Shown here: piece by piece, positions 9,388-58,269 of the stretch
Numbering within the stretch: position 1 is the stretch's first letter
How the letters are laid out: every line of letters begins with the position of its first letter
Source: an uncultured Lachnospiraceae bacterium
Lineage (GTDB): Bacteria; Bacillota; Clostridia; Lachnospirales; Lachnospiraceae
DNA length: 64,000 bases
NCBI GenBank assembly: GCA_947178125.1
Contig: CAMWXB010000013.1
Location: 1-64,000, forward strand
Direction: 5' to 3'
The notes under the pieces: generated by a model
Told to the model about the DNA's origin: nothing
Seen by the model: the letters and a program-made list of their open reading frames with translations, nothing else
Databases searched by the model: none
Program-made: the position numbers and the translations under genes

Positions 9388-10659
9388 CTAATCTTTCAAT
9401 TTTCCCGTTTCAAAGAACATATCCAGAGCGGCTCTTACATTCGCTTCTGCTTCTTCGCCTTCACCGGCCCAGATGACCGCATAGATCGCATACTGTGAAT
9501 AACCGCTCTGCGCGATATAGAAGATTCCGGTATCTCCATCGGCCTTCATCTCCATCACAAGCGTCCTTCCAAGGAAAGTTTCACCCGCATCATCTATCAC
9601 AAGGTCTGTTACATCTTCGCCGAGAACTTCTTCAAAATAACTTTGTGTATATTCCAGATCGGACAGCATTTCATCAATGACACCTTCATCGTAGGAATAA
9701 TCCTCCTCAATTGAAATATATCCGTATCCTCCTATCGCATCGCCTTTCGGTGCAAATACCGCTTCGCTGTAGGAACTTTCATCTTCGTCTTTCTCCCAGC
9801 CTTCCGGAAGTTCAAATGTCATAAAGCCCAGATTGAAAGCATCCGCATTATATTCGTCGCTGTTCTCAAATTCTGTCCGCTTTGCCTCTGCAAAAGAATC
9901 ATCCCATCCGATATCGATCTGATAAAAAGACTCCAGTTCGGCCACAAGATCTTTTGTCTTACCTGTCGTATCATCCGCTACAATACAGATATCAACAAGT
10001 CCCATGACATTGTCGCCCATTTCCTTTAAATAAAAGACCTGATAATACGGCGCATAACTATCGTCATAGGAATCGAACTGCATATATGTAACGACACACA
10101 TTGCAGCGTCTTTGCCGATCTCCTCTACTTCGCCGATTTCGATACCGTAAAGATAAGTAGAATAAGACATTTCACTTTCTATATACGTTTCCAGATTTTC
10201 ACCCACCGTATAATCTGCAGCATTATACTGAATATACGGATCAATATCTACATCTACCACAACCCCCATGCGCTCACTCGTTGCATAAGAACCGGAAACA
10301 CTCGGATAATCTCCATCCGGTACGAAAACAGATAACGTCTTTTTATCGCCCGACTTGGTGTTAGATGTGGATACCAGTTCTTCCATCAAATATTCAAATC
10401 CATCATATCCTTTTGCCTCGTCGGAACCAAAAACAACGCCGCTCACTGCTTTTGTCTCTTCCTCTGCCTCTTCCGGCTCCTTCGATTCTTCGTTTTCATC
10501 TTCCGCTTCTTCAGCGACATCTTCTGTGTCGGTATCATCCTCTGTTGCCTGTGCTCTGTTCTTCGTCAGATCAGAGGCACTTGGCTCCTTGCCGCCGCAA
10601 GCTGTCAGACCGGATAACATAGCTGAAATTAACAATGCAGTGATTATCTTATTTTTCAT
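9388..10659 (-). CDS. Lipoprotein with acidic stalk and duplicated-fold domain
   Basis: A 423-residue lipoprotein with signal MKNKIITALLISAMLSGL, lipid cysteine in LTACGGK, then an acidic low-complexity linker (about residues 38 to 72) and an extracellular domain region. The last 150 residues (FMTFELPEGWEKDEDE onward) are clearly related to the paralogue at 8443-9300. The middle part (about 75 to 240) could be a divergent copy of the same fold, as it also opens with a segment describing a single polypeptide strand pattern and ends before a Tyr-rich region; this is inference. The start overlaps the hybrid kinase stop in ATGA form and uses GGGAGAGAACGA as ribosome site. It may be the envelope partner of that kinase. 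Confidence 0.75.
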   Translation of the reverse strand: MKNKIITALLISAMLSGLTACGGKEPSASDLTKNRAQATEDDTDTEDVAEEAEDENEESKEPEEAEEETKAVSGVVFGSDEAKGYDGFEYLMEELVSTSNTKSGDKKTLSVFVPDGDYPSVSGSYATSERMGVVVDVDIDPYIQYNAADYTVGENLETYIESEMSYSTYLYGIEIGEVEEIGKDAAMCVVTYMQFDSYDDSYAPYYQVFYLKEMGDNVMGLVDICIVADDTTGKTKDLVAELESFYQIDIGWDDSFAEAKRTEFENSDEYNADAFNLGFMTFELPEGWEKDEDESSYSEAVFAPKGDAIGGYGYISIEEDYSYDEGVIDEMLSDLEYTQSYFEEVLGEDVTDLVIDDAGETFLGRTLVMEMKADGDTGIFYIAQSGYSQYAIYAVIWAGEGEEAEANVRAALDMFFETGKLKD

Positions 10660-20572: not shown

Positions 20573-20713
20573 ACAGAATCGCCTCAAGCGATTCTGTTGT
20601 GACGGAGAATGGCTCACAGAGACATTCTCCGGTGTGAAGAAGGTTCGCCCGCGAACTGTAGAAGTTCTTAACGATGCGCCCATTGGCGCGAGTTTTAGAA
20701 CTTCTCTTCACAC
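20573..20713 (-). repeat. Nested-hairpin element, copy A
   Basis: A composite of stems abutting the stop codon of the 20714-21775 gene. The outer stem is GTGTGAAGA/TCTTCACAC (20632-20640 with 20705-20713). Inside it are GTTCGC-CC-GCGAAC (20643-20656) and AGAAGTTCT/AGAACTTCT (20660-20668 with 20697-20705), which encloses GCGCC-CATT-GGCGC (20676-20689). Outside it are GGAGAATG/CATTCTCC (20604-20630) and ACAGAATCGC/GCGATTCTGT (20573-20597). The same architecture recurs at 51.1-51.4 kb. The rest of the 20516-20713 gap is an AT-rich leader. Confidence 0.8.
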
Positions 20714-21775
20714 TTAGCACAGCTGTCTTGAAATCTTACGGCATATTGTATAAATATCGGGATTGAATTTCACACCCGCCTCATCCTTCATGATTGCAAG
20801 CGCTTCCTCTCTGCTGTGCGCATTTTTCGCAGTCAGATTCGTATAACGTTCCATAATCGTTACAATCTGGGCCGCAAGCGGAATTTTTTCCCCTTTCAAA
20901 TGTTCAGGGTACCCGCCGCCATCCCAGTTCTCATGATGGTAACGCGCAATATCAATTGCCGTACTGATAAACTCGTTATAATCATTACTGACATAGAGGT
21001 CGCTCAACAGCTGTGCACCGATATTCGTATGATTCTGCCGAATCTCCGTTTCTTCCTCGGACAGGTCTCCTTTTTTCTTTAAAATATCCATCGGGACGCC
21101 GATATTGCCGATATCGCAAAGAGGTGTCGCCAGTTCTATCGTATCCACATAACTGTCCGATATCTTATCTTCGAACAGGGGCGAAAGCTGCATGCCCTGT
21201 GCCAAAATTCCGCAGTTTCGGCGCAGCCGCTCCATATAATCATTTTCATAATCGCTGTTCTGCAAAGCGATATTTGCCAGTGCATACAGAATGTTCTTTT
21301 TCTCCAGTTCCATCTGCCTGAGCTGCTCGCTGACGGAAACCTGAAGCTTTCTGTTCGTTTCCATCAACTCGTTCTTCACTTCATAAAGCCGCAGATGAAC
21401 ACCCACGCGGGCCTGCACTACTTCTGGTATAAAAGGTTTCGTAATATAATCTTCTCCACCGAGCAGAAAACCTTCTACAATATCCATCGGATCGTCGAAC
21501 GCCGAAATAAAAATAACCGGGATATTAGCCGTTTTCGGATTTTTCTTCAAATGCCTGCATAACTCATAACCATCCATTCCCGGCATGGAAATATCCGTCA
21601 AGACCAATCTGGGAGAACACTCCTTTGCCATTTTCAATGCTTCTTCTCCGCTCTCTGCCAGAATGGGGGAGCACCCTAAGTCCTTGATAATTTCCTCCAG
21701 GACCAGCCGGTTCGTCTCCACATCATCCACAATGAGTATCCGTTCTCCGTCCAAACGTTCTGCTCCATATCCCAT
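20714..21775 (-). CDS. Receiver plus degenerate HD-GYP-domain protein
   Basis: A 353-residue protein: an N-terminal receiver with Asp61 in LVLTDISMPGMDG, a coiled linker (about 130-165), and an HD-GYP-type domain. HD-GYP enzymes hydrolyse cyclic di-GMP. Here the signature HDIGK reads CDIGN (Cys220) and the later ADxxDAL segment reads MERYTNLT, so several metal ligands are missing, although YHHENWDGGGYP is kept. The C-terminus also ends early, next to a nested-hairpin element. It is probably catalytically inactive and may act as a phosphorylation-dependent binding partner of the intact paralogue at 23379-24482. GAGGTGGAATAG precedes the ATG. Confidence 0.85.
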   Translation of the reverse strand: MGYGAERLDGERILIVDDVETNRLVLEEIIKDLGCSPILAESGEEALKMAKECSPRLVLTDISMPGMDGYELCRHLKKNPKTANIPVIFISAFDDPMDIVEGFLLGGEDYITKPFIPEVVQARVGVHLRLYEVKNELMETNRKLQVSVSEQLRQMELEKKNILYALANIALQNSDYENDYMERLRRNCGILAQGMQLSPLFEDKISDSYVDTIELATPLCDIGNIGVPMDILKKKGDLSEEETEIRQNHTNIGAQLLSDLYVSNDYNEFISTAIDIARYHHENWDGGGYPEHLKGEKIPLAAQIVTIMERYTNLTAKNAHSREEALAIMKDEAGVKFNPDIYTICRKISRQLC

Positions 21776-36253: not shown

Positions 36254-36307
36254 GCATTCTCCAGCGTGAGAAAGACTTGCTCCGCAAGTCAGAACTTCTC
36301 TTCACAC
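36254..36307 (-). repeat. Nested-hairpin element, truncated copy B
   Basis: Directly after the stop of the ABC gene, on the minus strand, come TGTGAAGAGAAGTTCT, then GACTTGC-GGA-GCAAGTC (a 7-bp stem, 36274-36290), then TTTCTCACGC and half of the trailing hairpin (GGAGAATGC, 36254-36262). The central apical hairpin and the second inner arm found in copies A and D are missing. The two outer arms no longer match perfectly, so this is a deleted or recombined copy. Confidence 0.7.
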
Positions 36308-38049
36308 TAACCGACCTCTATGACCCGGTCGCACAATTTCAACGAAGACGCCCTGTGCGCCGCCACAATGACCGTTTTATCTCCCGGAATGCTGCGTATC
36401 GCATCCTGTACGATATTTTCACTGTACTGGTCCAGCGCGCTCGTCGCCTCATCGAAAATAAAAACATCGTTATCCTGCAGGAACATTCTCGCCAGAACAA
36501 TCCGCTGCCGTTGTCCGCCCGAAAGCTTTATGCCCTTTTCCCCGATCACCGTATCGAACCCGTCTGGCAGTCCTGTTATAAACGCATCAATACAGGCTTT
36601 CCGGCACGCCTGAAGCAGTTCTTCTTCCGAAGCATCTTCCTTTCCAAAAAGCAGGTTCTCTCGGATCGTCGTATGGAAAAGGATATTTTCCTGCATGATA
36701 TAACCAATCCTTTCATACATGAACGTTCTGTCAATATGGCGCAGGTCGATTCCGGAAAAAGAAACGCTTCCGCTCGTTGGCTCCAACATACCGGTAATCA
36801 GCTTCAGTAAGGTTGTTTTCCCGCTGCCGCTTTTTCCCGTGACCGCGACCCGCTCTCCCTTTTCTATCGTCAGGTCAAGATTTCGGAACAGGGCATTCTC
36901 CACATCGGGATATCTGAAAGTTACCTTTTTCAGCACAATTGTATTGGATGTATCCGGTACCTGTCCCACCTTTTTGCCGCATACCTGCTCCCGTTTCTGC
37001 CCTGCTGCTTTCTTGCCGTCCGGCTGCTCCTGCACCTGCCCCGACGTCTTATCATACGCTTCCTCCGGCGCCCATCCCGCCAGGCTTTCCAACAGCCTGT
37101 CCGTATACGGCATCCCGGACTGCAGGTCGGCATCCGCCGCAGACACGGTCTGTACAGCATCCGACAACAAGGCATAATACATGGCAAAAACCAGCAAATC
37201 CCCGATATGCAGGCTCCCCGAAAGAATCAGCAGCCCGCCAATAAAATACAGGCCAAACTGCATAAAAAATTCATCTTTCAGTTTCGGAATAATCAAGACC
37301 CTCGCCGTCCAGTAATTGATCCATTTCGCATTGCAGCGCATATCCGCATGGAGAAACCGATAGTAACGCCGTTCCTCATGCTTTGCCAGATTGAGCGCCC
37401 TGACTTCGCTCCAGCCCTGTACAAAAGCATGAAGCCACGAAGAAGTCCTTTGTGCAATCTCCCTGCGCTCATTCGTAATCTTTTTTTCACATCTGCTGAT
37501 CAGGCTCCCCAGCCAGAACGTAAAAGGGATTGCGAGCATGGAAAACAGGGCGAGCCCGATATGGATGCGAAACAGCATCCATATGCTGACCACGCCCGCC
37601 GCATACTGCATGAGAAGTTCAATCGTCTGACTGTCTGCAAACGCCGCAGCCTGCACGGTATCCTCATCAATCCGCATTTTCAGGTCGCCGACGCTGACCT
37701 TTTCATAATCCGAAAACCGCATTTCCCAGAAATTTCTCAATATTTTCTGCCGGATACGATATGTTGTGCCGTTGACGAGAGCATACTTCGCCAGCGCTTT
37801 GATATGACCGGCCGCCGCATCTGCAAAATAAACTGCCAGATAGCCGAAAACGACCGTCTTGAACATTCCAAAATCCGCCTGTAAAATCACATGTTCGATA
37901 AAAGTTCTATAAATCCGGGGTGTTGCAAAATTCAGTCCGGTTGTCACCGCGCTGAAAAGAAACAAGATTACCCAATACCTTTTTACACCGCGGGCATAAG
38001 GGCATAATCCGCACAAGACTCGATACCGGTACCGCATCCGTTTTCCCAT
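36307..38049 (-). CDS. ABC transporter, fused permease and ATPase (second half-transporter)
   Basis: A 580-residue half-transporter of the exporter type: about six membrane helices (residues 20-290), then a hydrophilic insert with repeated GQ-x-x-EQ and GKK words (about 325-355), then the ATPase. Walker A is VTGKSGSGKTTLL, the signature LSGGQRQRIVLAR, Walker B FIFDEATSALD, and the switch His AAHR. The protein stops at CDRVIEVG, about 25 residues earlier than its partner at 38148-39884, immediately next to hairpin element B, so its C-terminus may be truncated. The ATG at 38049 follows AAAGGA; a frame to 38322 overlaps the partner gene. It probably forms a heterodimer with that partner. Confidence 0.9.
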   Translation of the reverse strand: MGKRMRYRYRVLCGLCPYARGVKRYWVILFLFSAVTTGLNFATPRIYRTFIEHVILQADFGMFKTVVFGYLAVYFADAAAGHIKALAKYALVNGTTYRIRQKILRNFWEMRFSDYEKVSVGDLKMRIDEDTVQAAAFADSQTIELLMQYAAGVVSIWMLFRIHIGLALFSMLAIPFTFWLGSLISRCEKKITNERREIAQRTSSWLHAFVQGWSEVRALNLAKHEERRYYRFLHADMRCNAKWINYWTARVLIIPKLKDEFFMQFGLYFIGGLLILSGSLHIGDLLVFAMYYALLSDAVQTVSAADADLQSGMPYTDRLLESLAGWAPEEAYDKTSGQVQEQPDGKKAAGQKREQVCGKKVGQVPDTSNTIVLKKVTFRYPDVENALFRNLDLTIEKGERVAVTGKSGSGKTTLLKLITGMLEPTSGSVSFSGIDLRHIDRTFMYERIGYIMQENILFHTTIRENLLFGKEDASEEELLQACRKACIDAFITGLPDGFDTVIGEKGIKLSGGQRQRIVLARMFLQDNDVFIFDEATSALDQYSENIVQDAIRSIPGDKTVIVAAHRASSLKLCDRVIEVG

Positions 38050-38100
38050 ATGAATGACCATTCCTTTCTCTCGGCTTATGATTTTTATTCTAACCATCAT

Positions 38101-38119
38101 GATTCCGCTTCGCGGAATC
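38101..38119. repeat. GATTCCGC-TTC-GCGGAATC hairpin module
   Basis: An 8-bp stem with a 3-nt loop, flanked by CTAACCATCAT and TCTCAAAT. The same module with the same flanks lies at 51225-51243, and a variant at 49417-49433. It sits between the two ABC genes, about 50 nt before the second start. Confidence 0.65.
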
Positions 38120-38147
38120 TCAAATCCAAATGAAGAAGATGTTCCTT

Positions 38148-39884
38148 CTACTTCATTGCAAAAAGCGTTCGGAACCGCTCGCTTTCCACGGCCATCCGGG
38201 CGGGGATTCCCGTCTCCGCCACCTGTCCGTTTTCCAGTATGATACACCTGTCGCACAGCATCACGGAGCTTTGCCTGTGGGCAATCACAAGCGCCGTTTT
38301 TCCTGTTAAAACTTTCCGCCACGCCTGATGTATCGCGTTTTCCGTTTCATTGTCGAGCGCTGACGTCGCCTCATCAAAAATGAGAATCTTCGGATTTTTC
38401 AGATAAATCCGCGCAATGGCAAGCCGCTGTTTCTGCCCGCCGGAAAGCCCCATCCCCTTGCTTCCGATAATGGTATCAAGTCCCTCGGGCAGAGATTCAA
38501 TAAATGGCGCAAGCCCTGCTTCCTCATAAGCACGGATAAGTTGTTCCTCCGCCGCATGACGGTTTCCCATCAACAGATTCTGCCGAATACTCCCGTCAAA
38601 GACCAGTACATCCTGCTGAACATATCCAATCTCTTCCCGGACAGAGTCTAAAGCACAGGCATCAAGCCGCTGTCCGTCAATCGCAATCATCCCTTCCTGC
38701 GGCCGGTAAAAGCCGACAAGCAGACGCGCCAGCGTCGTCTTTCCGCATCCGCTCTTCCCGACAAGCGCCATATGCTTCCCCGCCGGAATCGTCAAAGTAA
38801 TCCTATGGAGCAGCGGCTCGCCGCTTTCATACCCAAAAGATACGCCGGAAAAGGAAATGCTTCCCTCCCTGATTTCCAACCTCTCTGTTCTTTCCGGTTC
38901 CGTCGGAGCCCGTAAAAAATCATGGATACGCTGTATGTACGACACGCGCCCCTGTGCATCGAGAAAATTCTGACTGATATAAGCAATTTTATCCGATAAT
39001 TTCGTATAAAAACTGAAAATAACAGTCAGCGTACCGAGCGTCATCTTTCCACATGCGGCCATATAAGCCGCCAGTCCATAGATCACAAGCCGGATGACCA
39101 GATTGGAAAGTGCGATCATATTCTGTGCGGTAAGCGACGAAATGCCGGCCGCAGCGCCAATCCGAAAAAGTTCTTTCTGCTTTTTCTCAAATGTCCTTTC
39201 AATCTTCCCTTCGCCGCGAAGCATCCTTATATCACGCAAAGCGGTAATGACTTCATACATCCAGCCGGCATAACTTCCGTATGCCTCCCGCTCTTCCTGT
39301 CCGAGACTGCCGATTTTTTTCCGGCACTTCATATTGATGAGAACGGAAAAAAACGCCGACAAAAGAGCCGTCAGACCGATGTGCCAGTCTACCGCGCACA
39401 GATAGGCGCCATACAGTATGGCCATCAAAACATTGTTATATAAGTGAATCATGTTCCGCACAATAAAGTGCATACACTGAACCGGATAATCCTGAAGCAG
39501 TACAAGGATTTCCCCCGTAGAAGCATTGGCCATATACCCGGCCTCGCACTTTTGCAGATGATGAAAGACATCCCTTCGAATGGAAAAAACGAACATATTC
39601 ATCAGATACCCGTGCTGGGCATATAAGAGGAAATACAGTCCGCCGGAAAATAGAATACAGAGCAGGAAGACAAGCGCGACCGCCCCAAAAGAATGCAGAT
39701 TCCGATAGTATACGGCCTCATCGATCATAATTCCGAAGAGAACAGGCAGCAGCACCGCAAGAAGCGAGTCCGCCAGCCAGCCCGCATAGAACATCATAAA
39801 ATGCTTCCGATATCCGCGCATATACCTTTTCAGAAATCCGATTGCTGACCAGTAATTCAACCTGTTTCCCGTCTCTTTCATCAT
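38148..39884 (-). CDS. ABC transporter, fused permease and ATPase (first half-transporter)
   Basis: A 578-residue exporter-type half-transporter. About six membrane helices are followed by an ATPase with Walker A LVGKSGCGKTTLARLL, signature LSGGQKQRLAIAR, Walker B LIFDEATSALD and switch VIAHRQSS. No C39 peptidase domain precedes the membrane part. The ATG overlaps the stop of the small membrane-protein gene in ATGA form, so it is translationally coupled to it. The second half-transporter follows after about 100 nt. Drug, lipid or peptide export are all possible; no precursor peptide gene was recognised nearby. Confidence 0.92.
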   Translation of the reverse strand: MMKETGNRLNYWSAIGFLKRYMRGYRKHFMMFYAGWLADSLLAVLLPVLFGIMIDEAVYYRNLHSFGAVALVFLLCILFSGGLYFLLYAQHGYLMNMFVFSIRRDVFHHLQKCEAGYMANASTGEILVLLQDYPVQCMHFIVRNMIHLYNNVLMAILYGAYLCAVDWHIGLTALLSAFFSVLINMKCRKKIGSLGQEEREAYGSYAGWMYEVITALRDIRMLRGEGKIERTFEKKQKELFRIGAAAGISSLTAQNMIALSNLVIRLVIYGLAAYMAACGKMTLGTLTVIFSFYTKLSDKIAYISQNFLDAQGRVSYIQRIHDFLRAPTEPERTERLEIREGSISFSGVSFGYESGEPLLHRITLTIPAGKHMALVGKSGCGKTTLARLLVGFYRPQEGMIAIDGQRLDACALDSVREEIGYVQQDVLVFDGSIRQNLLMGNRHAAEEQLIRAYEEAGLAPFIESLPEGLDTIIGSKGMGLSGGQKQRLAIARIYLKNPKILIFDEATSALDNETENAIHQAWRKVLTGKTALVIAHRQSSVMLCDRCIILENGQVAETGIPARMAVESERFRTLFAMK

Positions 39885-48422: not shown

Positions 48423-49403
48423 CTATTCCATATACGCCATCAAACGATCTGCCGTTGTAAATGCAAGCCCGGTCACCGTATCGGCACATCCATAATAAAT
48501 TGCAATCCTGCCTGTTGCCGCATCCGTCAATGCCGCGCAGGGAAATACGACATTCGGAACATCTCCCACGCACTCATACAGTTCATGCGGCGCCAGAATA
48601 TAATTTCTTGTTCTCTTTTTGACTTTCCACGGCTCCTCCAGATCGAGCAGCGCACATCCCATCCGGTAAACAAATCCGTTACAGGTATTGATCACACCGT
48701 GATAGATCAACAGCCAGCCATCTTCCGTTTCGATCGGAACGCATCCGGCACCGATTTTCGTAGACTGCCATGCGGATGTATCCCCCTTGATCGTTCCCAT
48801 CACCATGCGGTGCCGTCCCCAGTACTGCATATCCGGGCTTTCGCTCAGGAAAATATCACCGAAAGGCGTATGCCCGTTATCGCTCGGCCGGCTCAGCATA
48901 TAATATTTGCCCCGAATTTGCCGCGGGAACAGTACGCCGTTCCGGTTGAACGGCAAAAACGCATTTTCCAACTGATAAAAATTCCGAAAATCGAATGTAT
49001 ATCCTACCCCAATCGTCGGATATCCCCGATAACCGTTACACCATGTGACATAATATTTACCGTCGAGGAAACATACACGCGGGTCATAGCGAAATTCTCT
49101 TTCCGCAATTTCCGCATTCGCTCCCTGCAGTGCGATCGGCTCATCGGAGATTTTCCAATGAATGCCGTCCTTGCTGAAACCGGCAAATATATCCATGCTG
49201 ATCGACCTGCTGTCACAGCGGAATACGCCGGCGAAGCCATCCTCAAAAGGAACGACCGCGCTATTGAAAACGCTGTTGGAATTCCGGGTCGCAAATCTTT
49301 CAATGATCGGATTACCACTGTAACGCCACACTGGCATATCACAGGCATCTCCCGGTTCCTCCCATGGTATATTGGGCAGTTCTCTTCCAATTATCTTTGT
49401 CAT
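48423..49403 (-). CDS. GH130 beta-mannoside phosphorylase
   Basis: A 326-residue five-bladed beta-propeller of the GH130 family, which phosphorolyses beta-mannosides to mannose 1-phosphate. The general-acid Asp is in REFRYDPRV (about Asp107). [13 protein letters not shown] and [11 protein letters not shown] are typical active-site loops. With an ENGase and GH38 beside it, the most likely substrate is Man-beta-1,4-GlcNAc from the N-glycan core; this specificity is inferred from context. The ATG at 49403 follows GGAGGTTGGT; a longer frame to 49502 runs over hairpin sequence. It is cytoplasmic, with no signal peptide. Confidence 0.9.
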
Positions 49404-49416
49404 ACCAACCTCCATC

Positions 49417-49433
49417 ATGCCGCTTAGCGGTAT
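49417..49433. repeat. Variant of the GATTCCGC hairpin module
   Basis: ATGCCGC-TTA-GCGGTAT, flanked by AACCTCCATC and CTCAAAT, a variant of the modules at 38101 and 51225. It lies a few nucleotides upstream of the GH130 ribosome site and could influence its translation. Confidence 0.6.
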
Positions 49434-49463
49434 CTCAAATTCCAAAACAAACAGGTTCGTCAA

Positions 49464-49503
49464 GGAGAATGCCCGTATTGTGGGCATTCTCCGGTTCCTC
49501 ACC
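49464..49503 (-). repeat. Trailing-hairpin module after the binding-protein gene (copy C)
   Basis: GGAGAATGCCC and GGGCATTCTCC (49464-49474 with 49482-49492) form a perfect 11-bp stem with a 7-nt loop, starting 11 nt beyond the binding-protein stop codon. The stretch TAGGGTGAGGAACC between them resembles a shortened outer arm of the nested-hairpin element. Confidence 0.65.
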
Positions 49504-50994
49504 CTATTTGCCCAGGTATTCGTCTACCTGTCTCTGTGCCTCGTCGATGACATCCTGCCAGCCGGCTTTCATCAACTCTTCCTTGATCTGCGGTACCACG
49601 ACTGCAGGGTCCTGAACGCCTGTCATTACCTCACTGCGGTAACGAAGCCATATTTCGCGGCAGTTCGCCAGTTTATCCGCAACTTCCGTCGTATCGAATG
49701 TAAAGCCCAGCATAACGGAAGACACCGCCTGCTCGTTCAGCGCTTTGATCTCGCCCCACTGGTCGTATTCATCCGTATCGACCTGTGTTACCGTAAAGAA
49801 TGTCGCCTGCGTATAGCCGGCCATCTCCCAGTCGTTGTTGATCTTGTGCACTTTACCGTCCTGCGTATATTCAAAATTCACGCCTTCTTCGCCATAGTAG
49901 AACATATCACGAAGCTTTGTATCCACATTGATCAGGTCAAGAAGCTGTAAACATTTTTCCGGATACTTTGTATTGATGGAGATCATATTCAAAGAACCTC
50001 TTACCGTTTCGTTGGAAAGAATGGTATCGCCCATCTTCTGAACAACGACATCTTTGCCCATCTGAGGTCCCCATGAAGTGATTCCTGCGGATTCCCATCC
50101 CTGTGCAACACGCCACATATTGTAGACACGCGCTTCCGACAGGGTCGAAGCATCCGGATTGATGATTCCCTTCTGATACCACTCATGCAGTGTTTCCAGT
50201 GAACTGTAAATATCCGGTTCTTCCAGCGTAAAGCATACTCTCGCGTCCGCATCGTCATACCGTACGCCCAGAATCTGCGTTCCCGCTCCAATCTGGTCAT
50301 ATACGTCAAAGATATAATAGACTCCGTCGTTCTTTACATAAACAGGATAATCGTTCTTATCAGCTTTCAGCGTCTCAAAAATACCTGTCAGGGAATCCAT
50401 CTCCGTAAGCGATGCGATATCCAGATTGTATTCATCGACCAGTTCCTTATCCCATACCGCATAATTGGAGATGGAACTGTCTTTATAAGTAGGAATGCCG
50501 TAAATCCTGCCCTTTACCTTTACGCCTTCCCAGTATTTCTCCGGCATCAGTTCTGTCAGTCCCGGCATATTGGCATCTATCATATCAGTAATGTCGTAGT
50601 ATGCGCCCAGATTAATGTCCGCAATGTAGTTATTGCCGTTTCCGAAGATAATGTCATAAGGTTCGTTGGTGCTGACGATGATATTCCGGCGTTTATCCCA
50701 GTCGCCCCAGGGAATGACTTCCATCTCCAGACTGACGCCGACCTTTTCACCAATATACTCATTCACCTTTGCAATCCATGTATCATAGTTACGCGGCATA
50801 CCGTTTCCGATGATCACCCATTTCAGGGGAACGATTTCTCCACTGTCCGCCTGTGCGGATTGGGAACTGCCTTCGTTCCCGCCGCCTGATGATGCCGGAC
50901 TGCTCTCACCGCTCCCGCTGTTCCCACAACCTGCCAGTGTTCCGAGTAACATGACCGCAGCCGCTCCTGCTGCCAATAATCTTTTTAATTTCAT
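49504..50994 (-). CDS. ABC sugar-binding lipoprotein
   Basis: A 496-residue extracellular solute-binding protein: signal peptide, lipid Cys23 in [10 protein letters not shown], a Ser/Gly/Asn-rich linker, then the binding domain. The C-terminal region with [18 protein letters not shown] resembles the DUF3502-type ending of LplA-like proteins that serve complex glycans. AAGGAGGATCATT precedes the ATG. It follows the two permease genes, but a 392-nt gap full of hairpin elements separates them. The likely ligand is an N-glycan fragment, inferred from the glycosidases beside it. No ATPase gene is in the locus, so a shared MsmK-type ATPase is probably used. Confidence 0.9.
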
Positions 50995-51082
50995 AATGAT
51001 CCTCCTTTTTATATTTATATACTTCTTCTCTCACTACCCCCACACCCCAAAACAAGCAAACTTAATATAAGCAATCTTGTCT

Positions 51083-51214
51083 GGAAGAACGCCTCATTTG
51101 GGCGTTCTTCCGTGTGAGAAAGATTTGCCTCCGGCAAATCGTAGAACTTCCAAGTCAGCTATGCTGACTTTTCGAAACACCCACTGGTGTGAGTCTTAGA
51201 AGTTCTTCTCACAC
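51083..51214 (-). repeat. Nested-hairpin element, copy D-left
   Basis: The outer stem is GTGTGAGAA/TTCTCACAC (51112-51120 with 51206-51214). Inside are GATTTGCC-TCC-GGCAAATC (51122-51140) and AGAACTTC/GAAGTTCT (51143-51150 with 51199-51206), which encloses AAGTCAGC-TAT-GCTGACTT (51152-51170) and ACACC-CACT-GGTGT (51177-51190). The trailing hairpin is GGAAGAACGCC/GGCGTTCTTCC (51083-51111). The order of parts is the same as in copy A, but nearly every stem differs in sequence. Confidence 0.8.
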
Positions 51215-51224
51215 TAACCTCCAT

Positions 51225-51243
51225 GATTCCGCTTCGCGGAATC
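51225..51243. repeat. GATTCCGC hairpin module between the two D elements
   Basis: GATTCCGC-TTC-GCGGAATC with the flanks CTAACCTCCAT and TCTCAAAT, matching 38101-38119 exactly in the stem and loop. Confidence 0.65.
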
Positions 51244-51255
51244 TCAAATCGGTCG

Positions 51256-51387
51256 GGAGAATGCCGCTTTTTAGGCATTCTCCAGCGTGAGAAAGACTTG
51301 CTTCGCAAGTCGTAGAACTTCTTAGCGAAACAGCCAAGCCTGGGAACCAGGCTTTAGCTGTATGAGCTCTAGAAGTTCTTCTCACGC
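51256..51387 (-). repeat. Nested-hairpin element, copy D-right
   Basis: The outer stem is GCGTGAGAA/TTCTCACGC (51285-51293 with 51379-51387), the last base being the first base of the permease stop complement. Inside are GACTTGC-TTC-GCAAGTC (51295-51311) and AGAACTTCT/AGAAGTTCT (51314-51322 with 51371-51379), which encloses ACAGC/GCTGT and AAGCCTGG-GAA-CCAGGCTT (51330-51361). The trailing hairpin is GGAGAATGCC/GGCATTCTCC (51256-51283). It abuts the permease stop codon just as copy A abuts its gene. Confidence 0.8.
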
Positions 51388-52304
51388 TATTCTTTGACCG
51401 ACCCAATCGTCAGACCGGAAATAAAATACTTCTGGAAAAACGGATAGGTACATGCAATCGGTACGATGATCACGATCGCAATCGCCATTCGTACGCTTTC
51501 TGTCGGCATCGATGACCGGTACTGCTGTAAGGAAACGCCGCCATACGGATTGTTCGCAATATATTCGATGTTCTTCTGCATCTGGTTCAGCAGAGACTGC
51601 AGCGTCTGCAGCTTCGCATCCTGAATATACAGGGAAGCCTGGAACCAGTCATTCCAGTAACCGAATGCCGCGAACATACCGATCGTCGCCATGACCGGCT
51701 TGGAAATCGGCAGTACGATCCTCGACCATATCCTGAACTGTCCGGCTCCGTCAATCTTGGCGGATTCTATGATGGAATCCGGCACCGTCGTCCTGAAGAA
51801 CGTCCGGCAGATCGTAACACTGAAAGCCGAGCACGCAAGAGGCAGTATCAACGCCCATATGCTGTTGTTCAATCCCAGAATATTATTTACTACTACATAA
51901 CTTGCCAGCATTCCGCCGTTAAACACCATCGGAATGAAAATCAGCCATGTATAAATCTGTTTTAATTTAAAATTCCTTCTCGAGACCACATAGCCCATAG
52001 AAGTATTCAAAGCAATCGAAATGATCGTACCAATGACCGTTACTGCCACCGACATAAAAGCCGCACGCAGAATCGTCAAACGTTCGTTCCACAAGAACTC
52101 ATAAGCCGATGCGGAAAAGACCTGTGGAATGAGCTGATATCCGTTCGCCCGGATAGACTCCTCGTCAGTGATGGATATCGAAAAAACAAACAACAGCGGA
52201 ATCACACATATGATCGCCAGAAACAGAAATATCAGATTGAATACAATATTGGTAGATGTTTTGATCTGGTTCAATGACTGTCCGCTTTTTTCTTTTTTAC
52301 CCAC
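51387..52304 (-). CDS. ABC sugar permease (MalG/LplC type)
   Basis: A 305-residue inner-membrane permease with six helices. It starts with a first helix at NIVFNLIFLFLAIICVIPLL and carries the EAA-type cytoplasmic loop (IIESAKIDGAGQFRIWSRIV) that contacts the ATPase. The GTG at 52304 has AGGGGG 8 nt upstream; a GTG at 52313 lies within that ribosome site, so the shorter form is preferred. It is 15 nt after the partner permease. Its stop codon is contacted by a nested-hairpin element. Confidence 0.92.
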   Translation of the reverse strand: MGKKEKSGQSLNQIKTSTNIVFNLIFLFLAIICVIPLLFVFSISITDEESIRANGYQLIPQVFSASAYEFLWNERLTILRAAFMSVAVTVIGTIISIALNTSMGYVVSRRNFKLKQIYTWLIFIPMVFNGGMLASYVVVNNILGLNNSIWALILPLACSAFSVTICRTFFRTTVPDSIIESAKIDGAGQFRIWSRIVLPISKPVMATIGMFAAFGYWNDWFQASLYIQDAKLQTLQSLLNQMQKNIEYIANNPYGGVSLQQYRSSMPTESVRMAIAIVIIVPIACTYPFFQKYFISGLTIGSVKE

Positions 52305-52319
52305 GTTGTACACCCCCTG

Positions 52320-56197: not shown

Positions 56198-56869
56198 CTA
56201 TTCGGAAAGACAGTCTCTTAAACAGTCAACAATCGCCATACAATACGGAATATAAGAATCATTATCTTTATTAGAATAGTAATCAATAAAATCCCTTATA
56301 TTCTCATCTGAATATCGCTCTTCATCATAAACTTCCGAACTTTCTATAGCATTGCGTCTGTTTCGTATTAGATGATAATTATCAAGTCCCATTTGGGTTA
56401 TCATTTTCTGTGCAATATTTGTTGTAGGCTTCCTTGGCACACTATGTATTTTCCCGTCAATGGAATATTTAAACATCCGCTCAACTTCTGTTTTCGCTGG
56501 TGAAATCATCTCCTCATCCCACCAATCTTCCTTCTTATGCCCACAATGCCCGTCAGAATCAGTAATTCCTTCTCCATTGCAGGAAGCGAACATATTCTTA
56601 TATTCCAAATCAATCTGCGGAAAGAAAGTTTTAGGCCAAAAATGCTCAATATGTGAATTATTCAGAAATACTCTTTTCATACAATAGCAGCAAATATTGC
56701 CCTGCTCCTTAATTAACTGTTTGCGCAAACGTTGTCGCCGCATTTTTCCATCCCGATCATTTGTGGAAAAATCATTTTTGTAATGTGCTTCTCTGCCATT
56801 TTCACTTTTAAAATCCTGTTTCCAGGCCTCAAACCACTCCGGTGAGTCTCCTTTATTAATTCTTTTCAT
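56198..56869 (-). CDS. ptuB: Septu defence HNH nuclease PtuB
   Basis: A 223-residue HNH endonuclease of the PtuB/TIGR02646 type, the effector of the Septu anti-phage system. Cysteines in NICCYCMKR (about 60-65), the catalytic SHIEHFWPK (His73, His76), LEYKNMFASCNGE and the HCGHKK segment give the expected zinc-finger HNH order. The start at 56869 overlaps the end of ptuA by 14 nt; a frame to 56887 adds six residues inside ptuA. It is expected to cleave nucleic acid when PtuA senses infection. Base composition is much more AT-rich than its neighbours, consistent with transfer. Confidence 0.85.
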   Translation of the reverse strand: MKRINKGDSPEWFEAWKQDFKSENGREAHYKNDFSTNDRDGKMRRQRLRKQLIKEQGNICCYCMKRVFLNNSHIEHFWPKTFFPQIDLEYKNMFASCNGEGITDSDGHCGHKKEDWWDEEMISPAKTEVERMFKYSIDGKIHSVPRKPTTNIAQKMITQMGLDNYHLIRNRRNAIESSEVYDEERYSDENIRDFIDYYSNKDNDSYIPYCMAIVDCLRDCLSE

Positions 56870-58142
56870 TTCGTTTTCCCCGTGCAATCAGTACTCTTGC
56901 CTTTGCAACTCCATCCACATATCCATTGGATATTTCATCTAATTTATCTGCTATTTTTTCTGCCTGAGTAAATTCTTTATTGCTAATATACTCGTACATT
57001 TCCTCCACCAACTGCTTAATTTCTGCATTTACTGAAGCAGTTCTCATTACTTCCTCTAAAATTACATTTGCATCCCATCCAATAAAAGATTTATATTGCT
57101 GGAGACTCACTTTATCATTCTCCCGCAACATATAAAATAGATTAAATGTGTCATCCAGTTCTCCTAAAATTTGTGGCGAATGCGTCGTAATGATAAACTG
57201 GATATTTGGAAAGGTCTGTCGTAAAACATTCATTACTTTTCTTTGCCAGGAAGTATGCATATGAAGATCCAACTCATCAATCAAAACAACCCCCTGCCCA
57301 TCAAGCGGATTTGATAATTGAGGATTTGCCAACGCCATCCTGCGTGCCAAGTCACCAAATAAAGCAATTGTACATTTTTCTCCATCTGATAATTGATTTA
57401 TCTTTAGATACCGCCCATCTTTTCTCACCTTCATTGCTAATGGCCTTCTATCGATATGAATATCATCAAAACCATCGAGCATAGCAAGCATAGCCTTTTT
57501 TACCGCTAACAGACTTCTATCCTCGTAGGCATCGTTTTTTCTCACTTTTTCCTGATTTTCAATATCTTCCTGATTACGAAACCACATAAACAATGTTCTA
57601 AAATCAATCTTACTTTCTATCGCTTTATCAAATGCACTAAGCTTAGTAAACTGTCCATTTTTAGCTCTCAGTGGGACATCAAAAACAGACCTGTTAACGC
57701 CATAATTTACAAAAACAGGCATATTCTTCATATCTTCTTTTTCAATCCAGTTTCCATTGCCGTCATCATTTCCCTTTTCAATATAATATTCTTCAAATAA
57801 AGCAACCAGTTCTCTTAATTCGCTCATTCTATGCTTTCTACCTCCAGATCTGAAAATAGAACGAGAATATTCTTTTAACCTTCCATCTGGGAACTGAAAT
57901 ACCACATTAATTTCAGCCCTTGTCTTTCCATAACTAATATCATCAAGTTCTAATTGCGCCAGCTTTTTTTTTGAAGATACAAGCAGAGATATAATATTTG
58001 CGTAAATCAAATCGATTGCTCGTAATATCGTTGATTTTCCTACACCATTAATGCCAAATAGAATTGTACTTTTTCCCTCAAATGGTATTTCCAAATTATC
58101 GATTCCTTTAAAATTTGAAACCTTAATCATCTTAACTCTCAT
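56856..58142 (-). CDS. ptuA: Septu defence ATPase PtuA
   Basis: A 428-residue AAA15/OLD-like ATPase, the sensor and regulatory part of Septu. Walker A is FGINGVGKSTIL (about 29-40), the ABC-like signature is QLSDGEKCTIALFGDL, Walker B is VVLIDELDLHMH, and FIITTHSPQIL is the following His switch. The TOPRIM domain of full OLD nucleases is absent, and the nuclease is provided by ptuB. The gene overlaps ptuB and has a -10-like TATAAT upstream but a weak -35. The retron Ec78 system uses the same pair plus a reverse transcriptase; none was seen here, so plain Septu is the better call. Confidence 0.85.
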   Translation of the reverse strand: MRVKMIKVSNFKGIDNLEIPFEGKSTILFGINGVGKSTILRAIDLIYANIISLLVSSKKKLAQLELDDISYGKTRAEINVVFQFPDGRLKEYSRSIFRSGGRKHRMSELRELVALFEEYYIEKGNDDGNGNWIEKEDMKNMPVFVNYGVNRSVFDVPLRAKNGQFTKLSAFDKAIESKIDFRTLFMWFRNQEDIENQEKVRKNDAYEDRSLLAVKKAMLAMLDGFDDIHIDRRPLAMKVRKDGRYLKINQLSDGEKCTIALFGDLARRMALANPQLSNPLDGQGVVLIDELDLHMHTSWQRKVMNVLRQTFPNIQFIITTHSPQILGELDDTFNLFYMLRENDKVSLQQYKSFIGWDANVILEEVMRTASVNAEIKQLVEEMYEYISNKEFTQAEKIADKLDEISNGYVDGVAKARVLIARGKRNEKN

Positions 58143-58269
58143 CATTCACCTCATAATATCAACATACGTTTTATAATAGAATTATAGCATAATTCCAATA
58201 AAAATAAACGTAAAGCTCCAAAGAAATTACTCTGTATCCAAAGAAATCAGACCGCAGTATACAAATTTT

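Follow-up and report, generated by a model that had tools for sequence, protein, structure and literature searches.

The window, by which we mean the whole 64-kb stretch of DNA that was analyzed, contains a 392-bp gap between two minus-strand genes, and this gap is the site of two hairpin copies in tandem. The upstream gene (51387–52313) encodes a binding-protein-dependent ABC transporter permease, for which the best NCBIfam models, UgpE and MalG, both scored below their cut-offs. The downstream gene (49504–50994) ends with a TAG stop codon at 49506–49504 and had no match in NCBIfam; its place and its lipoprotein-like start suggest that it probably encodes the substrate-binding protein of the transporter. 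Both copies lie on the minus strand, which is the gene strand. The core of element 1 (51285–51389; 75.8 bits with the covariance model R1, see below) is a three-way junction of the helices P1, P2, and P3 with an extra apical hairpin in P2, and its first triplet, TAG (51389–51387), is the stop codon of the permease ORF (offset 0). It is followed by a trailing hairpin, P4 (GGAGAATGCC...GGCATTCTCC, 51256–51283), and by a 3' module (51217–51243) in which a P5 hairpin (51243–51225) leads into ATGGAGGT and joins element 2 without a gap. The core of element 2, the tandem copy (51112–51216; 68.2 bits), starts with TAGTGTGAG, away from any gene end, and is followed by its own P4 (GGAAGAACGCC...GGCGTTCTTCC, 51083–51111). 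Both P4 hairpins were placed by sequence and fold. The two elements are spaced 173 bp apart. In the gene direction, the architecture reads TA, then P1 enclosing P2 with its apical hairpins and P3, then P4. The initial annotation of two tandem copies with a single architecture is thus confirmed, and each of its named stems was located in the sequence. Its span covered both copies but, by ending at 51387, dropped two bases of the leading TAG; the true start is 51389.

The fold of the 331-nt region had a z-score of −12.2, and none of 100 shuffled sequences was equally stable. The single copies, folded as minus strands, had z-scores of −10.9 and −9.5, with none of 200 shuffles as stable in either case. 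Among copies, the core measures about 87–105 nt. To describe it, 16 simple copies were picked, leaving out truncated copies and those with extra apical hairpins, and were aligned with MAFFT, which does not fit the alignment to a structure. From this alignment (A3), RNAalifold unaided predicted 32 of the 33 base pairs that had been named beforehand. In the same 16 copies, 97.6% of the cells paired, and double changes occurred in 14 of the 33 pairs, compared with 6.9 ± 1.3 in shuffles, none of which (0/500) reached as many. In 101 copies from the source genome, 96.9% of 3109 cells paired and 26 of the 33 pairs had double changes, figures biased towards the structure by an alignment made to the covariance model; when the partners were slid by one base, pairing fell to 43–45%. 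The claim that the stems stay paired while their letters differ therefore holds, with covariation beyond chance. As the changes track the pairing, a small peptide encoded across the element was set aside as an explanation. Changes that break a pair also proved comparatively rare: in 40 nearest-copy pairs from the source genome, one-sided changes at paired sites occurred at 0.022 per site, about four times more rarely than changes at unpaired sites (0.096). Copies also exist in other genomes. Neither of the two outcomes that the initial annotation had named as refuting was thus observed, and the structural claim stands.

The elements of the window belong to a large dispersed family. R1, the covariance model built from A3, found at least 133 copies (E ≤ 0.01) in the source genome (4.14 Mb, Lachnospiraceae-type), a lower bound, with R1 scores for 150 of 2064 candidates. 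When one copy was used as a BLAST query against the same genome, 59 matches were obtained, of which 41 had E ≤ 1.4e-7. A second model, R2, had matches in 29 of 40 same-genus genomes, the source genome included; copy number across the genus was patchy, with 0–47 copies in the other genomes and at least 110 in the source genome (113 candidates scored). An exact 20-base pattern was present in at least 106 stretches of public genomes. Among the 80 stretches listed, 79 were titled Lachnospiraceae, Roseburia, Acetatifactor, Blautia, “uncultured bacterium” or “Bacterium 1xD42-87”. The exception, from Phocaeicola vulgatus (L109), has the 20-base pattern alone, with the structure absent by eye, and was taken as a chance match. 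In 16 genomes from other families of the order, R1 found no copy at the strict cut of E ≤ 1e-18. A contig classed as viral (L301, IMGVR_UViG_3300035424_000360) matched the pattern at 9572 and 9727; these two matches may lie in host DNA or may indicate that the element is carried horizontally.

Two unrelated loci, L002 and L004, carry an identical 87-nt core, and 17 of 52 3' modules continue into another core, forming tandem or mosaic arrays. At L200:998–1310, three tandem copies lie behind a gene with a DapB-like end, and copies 2 and 3 are without their start. The counts below rest on two sets of copies: 101 R1 matches from 91 loci of the source genome, out of its at least 133 copies, and 96 R1 matches in other genomes, from 100 of the 106 pattern stretches (without L109 and L132–L136), some of which lie beyond the 80 with listed titles. 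Seven of the latter were dropped from the stop-codon count because their 5' flank was shorter than 250 nt, leaving 89. At gathering score, Rfam gave no match to the element. Below the cut-off, the trailing hairpin gave the best match, to the animal microRNA mir-278 (27.8 of 55 bits, E 1.6e-4); this and three weaker sub-cut-off matches were taken as chance. A search of the open-licence PubMed Central literature found no description of a Lachnospiraceae repeat of similar kind.

Elsewhere in the window, again on the minus strand, there is a further full copy (20603–20716; 90.1 bits, offset −1), which starts at the TAA stop (20716–20714) of a response-regulator ORF (20714–21775), and a truncated copy with P1 and P3 only (36264–36309; 24 bits), which starts at the TAG stop (36309–36307) of an ABC exporter ORF (36307–38322). 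Either of these may be the “copy A” to which the tandem pair had been compared without coordinates. A core-deleted copy (49404–49506) takes up all of the next gap in the operon: it begins with TAG, the stop codon of the gene before it, continues with the P1 remnant GGTGAGG, P4 (49492–49464), P5 (49430–49420), and ATGGAGGTTGGT, and is directly followed by ATG 49403, the proposed start of the gene behind it. A solo 3' module, a P5 hairpin with ATGATGGTTAG, was recognized on the minus strand by sequence at 38090–38126 as a member of the direct repeat family D2. All four independent elements (51389, 49506, 36309, and 20716; two full, one truncated, one core-deleted) start at a stop codon; the start of the tandem copy, at 51216, does not. 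The ORF at 48423–49502, mannobiose-phosphorylase-like by a family match below the cut-off, is listed with a GTG start at 49502, yet its first 33 codons are the core-deleted copy; the true start is likely ATG 49403, which follows GGAGGTTGGT. The window also holds, at 56856–58145, an ATPase resembling the retron/anti-phage effector PtuA, which scored 277.6 of 500 bits and so lies below the curated cut-off.

The position of the window elements is that of most of the family. Among 100 distinct copies in the source genome, 66 had a gene stop between −3 and +5 relative to their first base, compared with a background mean of 0.82 and maximum of 4 in a sliding count at positions more than 12 nt off the element start; in other genomes, the corresponding number was 50 of 89 (background 0.72, maximum 4). 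A frame of at least 90 codons closed within −60 to +21 of the start in 80 of the 101 source-genome copies, with its stop at offset 0 in 38, +5 in 11, −1 in 6, −2 in 6, −3 in 5, +18 in 3, and elsewhere in 11; with a stricter gene definition, 62 of 101 copies were at a stop. At offset 0, the stop codon is the element's own first triplet, usually TAG, which is the first triplet of 147 of 188 copies; at offset +5, it is usually the TGA within TAGTGTGA. This coincidence is partly trivial when counted from ORFs, because the first stop codon inside the element inevitably closes any frame that runs into it. Forward frames ended in the element in 74 source-genome and 60 other copies, at −3 to +5 in 62 and 49 of them, and frames entering from the 3' side on the opposite strand also stopped at fixed element positions, in 35 and 26 copies, respectively. 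For this reason, real protein ends were checked in relatives, and it is these homologous ends, not the frame counts, that carry the claim.

Among the copies that do not begin at a stop, 16 of 65 have a TATAAT-like hexamer (one mismatch allowed) whose last letter is also the element's first base, with a background mean of 0.78; examples are L138, L147, L184, L190, L070, L113, and L088. As a promoter, this hexamer was rejected, −35 boxes not being enriched (mean 2.75 mismatches, perfect in L070 only). It is probably a target preference for A/T-rich sites, the only account of it that our main reading (see below) offers.

The 3' ends of 20 source-genome genes were searched for in 24 other genomes of the genus, and 68 sequences at 14 sites could be compared. 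R1 found the core absent from 67 of the 68 orthologous sequences; R1 detects the core only, so that a leftover 3' module at such a site is not seen by the model. At the L226 site, the relatives L230, L234, and L238 indeed retain a P5-like 3' module although the core is absent, and the missing cores could in part be losses. The sole filled site is that of L150 in genome G006 (L229). There, the element occupies the same place as in the source genome, P1 and P2 are paired but consist largely of other letters, and there is no P3; it is either an independent insertion or a replacement by another subfamily.

At 8 of the 14 sites, half or more of the relatives have their protein end in exactly the position seen in the source genome: the window (where the permease end VKE* is at the same residue in 3 of 3 relatives), L150, L152, L153, L159, L213 (2 of 3), L226, and L200 (3 of 6). 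At five sites (L141, L144, L170, L179, and L207), the relatives are mostly 1–7 codons longer, although one of the five relatives at L179 has the same protein length. At L223, whose gene end we take to be purF-like, the source-genome gene reads on for six codons inside the element and closes further downstream than its counterparts in relatives. One of the 68 sequences, L293, comes from a contig that ends before the stop. Insertion is therefore not strictly at the stop, relatives mostly ending elsewhere at 6 of the 14 sites, and the five sites with longer relatives weaken the idea that an inserting enzyme strictly recognizes stop codons. The native stop-to-start gaps had a median of 44.5 nt (quartiles 16.5 and 67.8; 64 measured of 67 sequences, the filled site among them). 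Such short gaps make insertion exactly at the junction plausible; by our estimate, uniform insertion over them would place roughly a fifth of the copies, not two thirds, in a 9-nt interval. The intergenic DNA of the relatives is too diverged for the junctions and a target-site duplication, for which TA or TAG was considered, to be fixed. In conclusion, most copies begin at the stop codon of a gene, and this codon is usually supplied by the element, a feature that the initial annotation did not contain.

Many copies run at their other end from P4 into the P5 hairpin and then into ATGGNGGTTAGN. Of 52 3' ends with P5 and ATGGNGGTTAGN, 35 are non-tandem, and an ORF of at least 50 codons starts near 16 of these, in 14 cases at one fixed spacing, directly after TTAGN. 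Some of the fixed-spacing starts use the repeat's own GTG and may be due to chance; those with an ATG and a long frame are more telling. Eight fixed-spacing proteins were scanned with Pfam, and seven matched. The domain begins within the first 20 residues in four of the eight (GH3, MatE, GH42, and EPSP synthase) and further in for L051, L127, and L144; the L062 protein had no match. The start at L144 agrees with that of the relative G008, of whose short native gap nothing recognizable by eye is left at L144. At L086, two elements bracket the EPSP synthase gene, one ending where the gene starts and the other, a 5' fragment, providing the TAG on which it stops. In some operons (L144; the window at 49506–49404), the gap is filled wholly, from TAG to ATGGNGGTTAGN-ATG. 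Some 3' ends thus supply a Shine-Dalgarno sequence and a start codon to the next gene. A second start-side repeat, a hairpin followed by GCAGGTT...GAAAGGCATGGTTATTA, occurs 10 times in the loci (L038:1688 and 2613, L098:3409, L151:1701, L152:1362, L173:195, L154, L202, L115, and L116); it lies just before a start codon in several and directly behind a core in L038.

Taken together, these observations describe a new Lachnospiraceae repeat family that is REP/BIME-like, present in high copy number, and, by its distribution, mobile; most of its members abut stop codons. Our main reading, to which we give a probability of roughly 0.6, is that the element is mobile DNA of the REP/BIME kind, non-autonomous, and tolerated where the genes of an operon meet. 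The suggestion of a REP/BIME-like mobilized palindrome in the initial annotation is supported as to kind by the copy number, the mosaic modules, the tandem arrays, the identical cores, and the absence of the core from 67 of 68 orthologous sequences; the elements do not qualify as members of the GTAG-REP/RAYT group (see below). In the broad sense, the elements share with REPs and BIMEs that they are high-copy, extragenic, palindromic, partly mosaic or tandem, and mainly downstream of coding regions. Insertion would generate the copies, with A/T-rich sites of the form (A)A^TA(A/G) as the probable targets, and a trans-acting enzyme would recognize the palindromes as DNA hairpins; such an enzyme would keep Watson-Crick pairing about equally on both strands. 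Host selection would then purge most insertions and spare those whose left end restores an interrupted stop and whose right end restores an interrupted ribosome-binding site; survivors would thereby accumulate at stops in tight gene-to-gene gaps. Once transcribed, the hairpin would fold so that the stop codon lies at its base, and it may affect termination, ribosome recycling, or mRNA stability of the upstream cistron, as has been reported for E. coli REPs near stop codons. What weighs against this reading is that no transposase came to light (see below), that insertion is not strictly at stops, that some of the empty sites may be losses, that part of the ORF-based coincidence is trivial, and that P1–P3 show an excess of G-U over A-C.

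A bolder version is that the element acts as a mobile intercistronic cassette, which gives the left gene its stop codon and equips the right gene with a Shine-Dalgarno sequence and a start position, and which can thereby occupy operon junctions from stop to start without breaking either gene. We regard this as a tentative possibility, with the odds somewhat against it. If true, it would represent a signal-restoring life style for selfish DNA in gene-dense genomes, and the cassette would be a ready means to rewire operon spacing.

The foremost alternative to a mobile DNA element is an intercistronic RNA element under selection at its present position: the fold at the stop would stabilize the upstream cistron or tune termination and the expression of neighboring genes, and copies would spread, their position and pairing being retained for the usefulness of the RNA. 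The exact placement at stop codons on the coding strand and the strong folds are in keeping with it, as are the same-strand frame that starts within 300 nt downstream in 82 of 101 copies and the commonest Pfam family among the upstream genes, BPD_transp_1 permeases (9 of 75). Such permeases are a classic location of REPs. These 75 genes (of 80; five short or duplicate proteins were omitted from the scan) are otherwise varied, with no evident common function, and this mixture, like the absence of the core from nearly all orthologous sites, speaks against a selected RNA. In favor of such an RNA, PMC12306157, with its reference 17 as the source, reports lower translation in E. coli where a REP lies less than 16 nt from the stop.

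The kind of departure from pairing bears most directly on this alternative. If RNA of the gene strand were under selection, G-U pairs would be tolerated and A-C mismatches would not. Over all helices, there were 88 G-U and 103 A-C among 5354 cells (44 and 57 of 3109 in source-genome copies, 44 and 46 of 2245 in other genomes), so that G-U was not well above A-C as in functional RNA. Six tRNAs from the same loci, a small control chosen by a finder that itself favors paired stems, had 19 G-U and 0 A-C among 147 cells. The 40 nearest-copy pairs gave the same picture, their one-sided changes comprising 19 G-U, 23 A-C, and 14 others. In the outer helices P1–P3 alone, G-U exceeded A-C (62 versus 34; binomial p = 0.006), which hints at some selection at the RNA level. 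Since G-U is no commoner than A-C over all helices, unlike in tRNAs, pairing looks to be needed and kept in DNA, and selection on the RNA is weak at most at any one site. A useful RNA as the main explanation is accordingly rather unlikely. The initial annotation's 3'-UTR RNA structure is a candidate only: the place at stop codons fits a transcribed 3' element. The compensatory change on which that annotation relied is real, but what was drawn from it, a selected structure, is weakened by departures that are strand-symmetric over all helices. Strong covariation alone is thus no proof of RNA function, and the comparison of G-U with A-C is a cheap test that is worth using elsewhere.

Pairing might also be kept by mutation rather than by selection, with template switching between the palindrome arms copying one arm onto the other and so producing compensation without function. 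The nearest-copy pairs, with 34 both-sided pair changes beside 56 one-sided ones and no excess of G-U among the latter, are what such copying would leave behind; module exchange between subfamilies, however, yields the same double changes, and the dispersal, the conserved architecture, and the stop-codon position are left unexplained. As a full account, we hold template switching to be improbable.

Much less probable still, and already largely refuted, is a GTAG-type REP moved by a RAYT, a Y1 tyrosine transposase. It would account for the TAG end, the high copy number, and the tandem and mosaic arrays. The core, though, is a three-way junction and not a palindrome of 20–40 bp, and the GTAG tetranucleotide at the foot of the stem is missing from most copies, a G preceding the element in only 19 of 188. 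No Y1 transposase was found in the source genome, a 93% complete draft. In the genus, Y1_Tnp was present in 10 of 31 genomes and did not track copy number: G023 has 16 Y1 matches and only 2 elements, while G006 has 17 elements and no Y1. The RAYT was therefore rejected as the mobilizer. Among the upstream genes, no transposase appeared in the best 25 of 84 Pfam families. Least credible of all is an intrinsic terminator or attenuator between operon genes, which the stable hairpins 3' of genes might suggest, but 49300–51500 contains no terminator-like site (1.4 in shuffles), no T tract follows P4 in the window copies, and same-strand genes lie close downstream.

As for better-known repeats, MITEs and RU/ERIC/BOX-type repeats are short, non-autonomous, intergenic, and modular, as are the elements described here. 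The latter differ in their multi-stem core; P1, the outer stem, forms an inverted repeat at the core ends, but P4 and P5 lie outside it, and with empty sites too diverged for junctions, a terminal inverted repeat with a fixed target duplication is not demonstrable. With the GTAG REPs and BIMEs of E. coli, Pseudomonas, and others, as treated in the available part of PMC3733652, the elements share that they are high-copy intergenic palindromes, mosaic and tandem, and mostly 3' of genes; there, too, the TAG of the terminus often provides the stop codon of flanking ORFs, a likeness that favors the GTAG type. They differ in the branched core of about 87–105 nt with separate P4 and P5 modules, in the usual lack of a G before TAG, in having no link to a RAYT, in the overlap with the stop in more than half of the copies, and in the 3' module with its Shine-Dalgarno sequence and start codon. 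Their host is a member of the Lachnospiraceae, and Firmicutes are absent from the phyla that this part of PMC3733652 lists for GTAG repeats. In E. coli, 446 of 4,072 called REPs lie within 15 nt of a stop (PMC12306157, available in part). The elements share with these the hairpin beside the stop codon and a possible effect on termination, although here most copies overlap or touch the stop and the effect is a candidate only.

Thus, what was already known, so far as the available parts of the two sources show, is that GTAG REP ends often give stop codons (PMC3733652) and that translation in E. coli is lowered by REPs close to a stop (PMC12306157). New, as far as we searched, are the family itself and its branched core, the extent to which it overlaps stops, the form that reaches from stop to start, and pairing that is symmetric between the strands. 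The findings add a large repeat family to gut bacteria for which our searches found no named REP. Gene starts and 3' ends that are supplied by the element, such as the start at 49403, may be mis-annotated in these genomes. Two questions become testable: whether selfish elements fit their ends to translation signals, and whether a hairpin rooted at a stop codon changes termination or the ratio of neighboring operon products.
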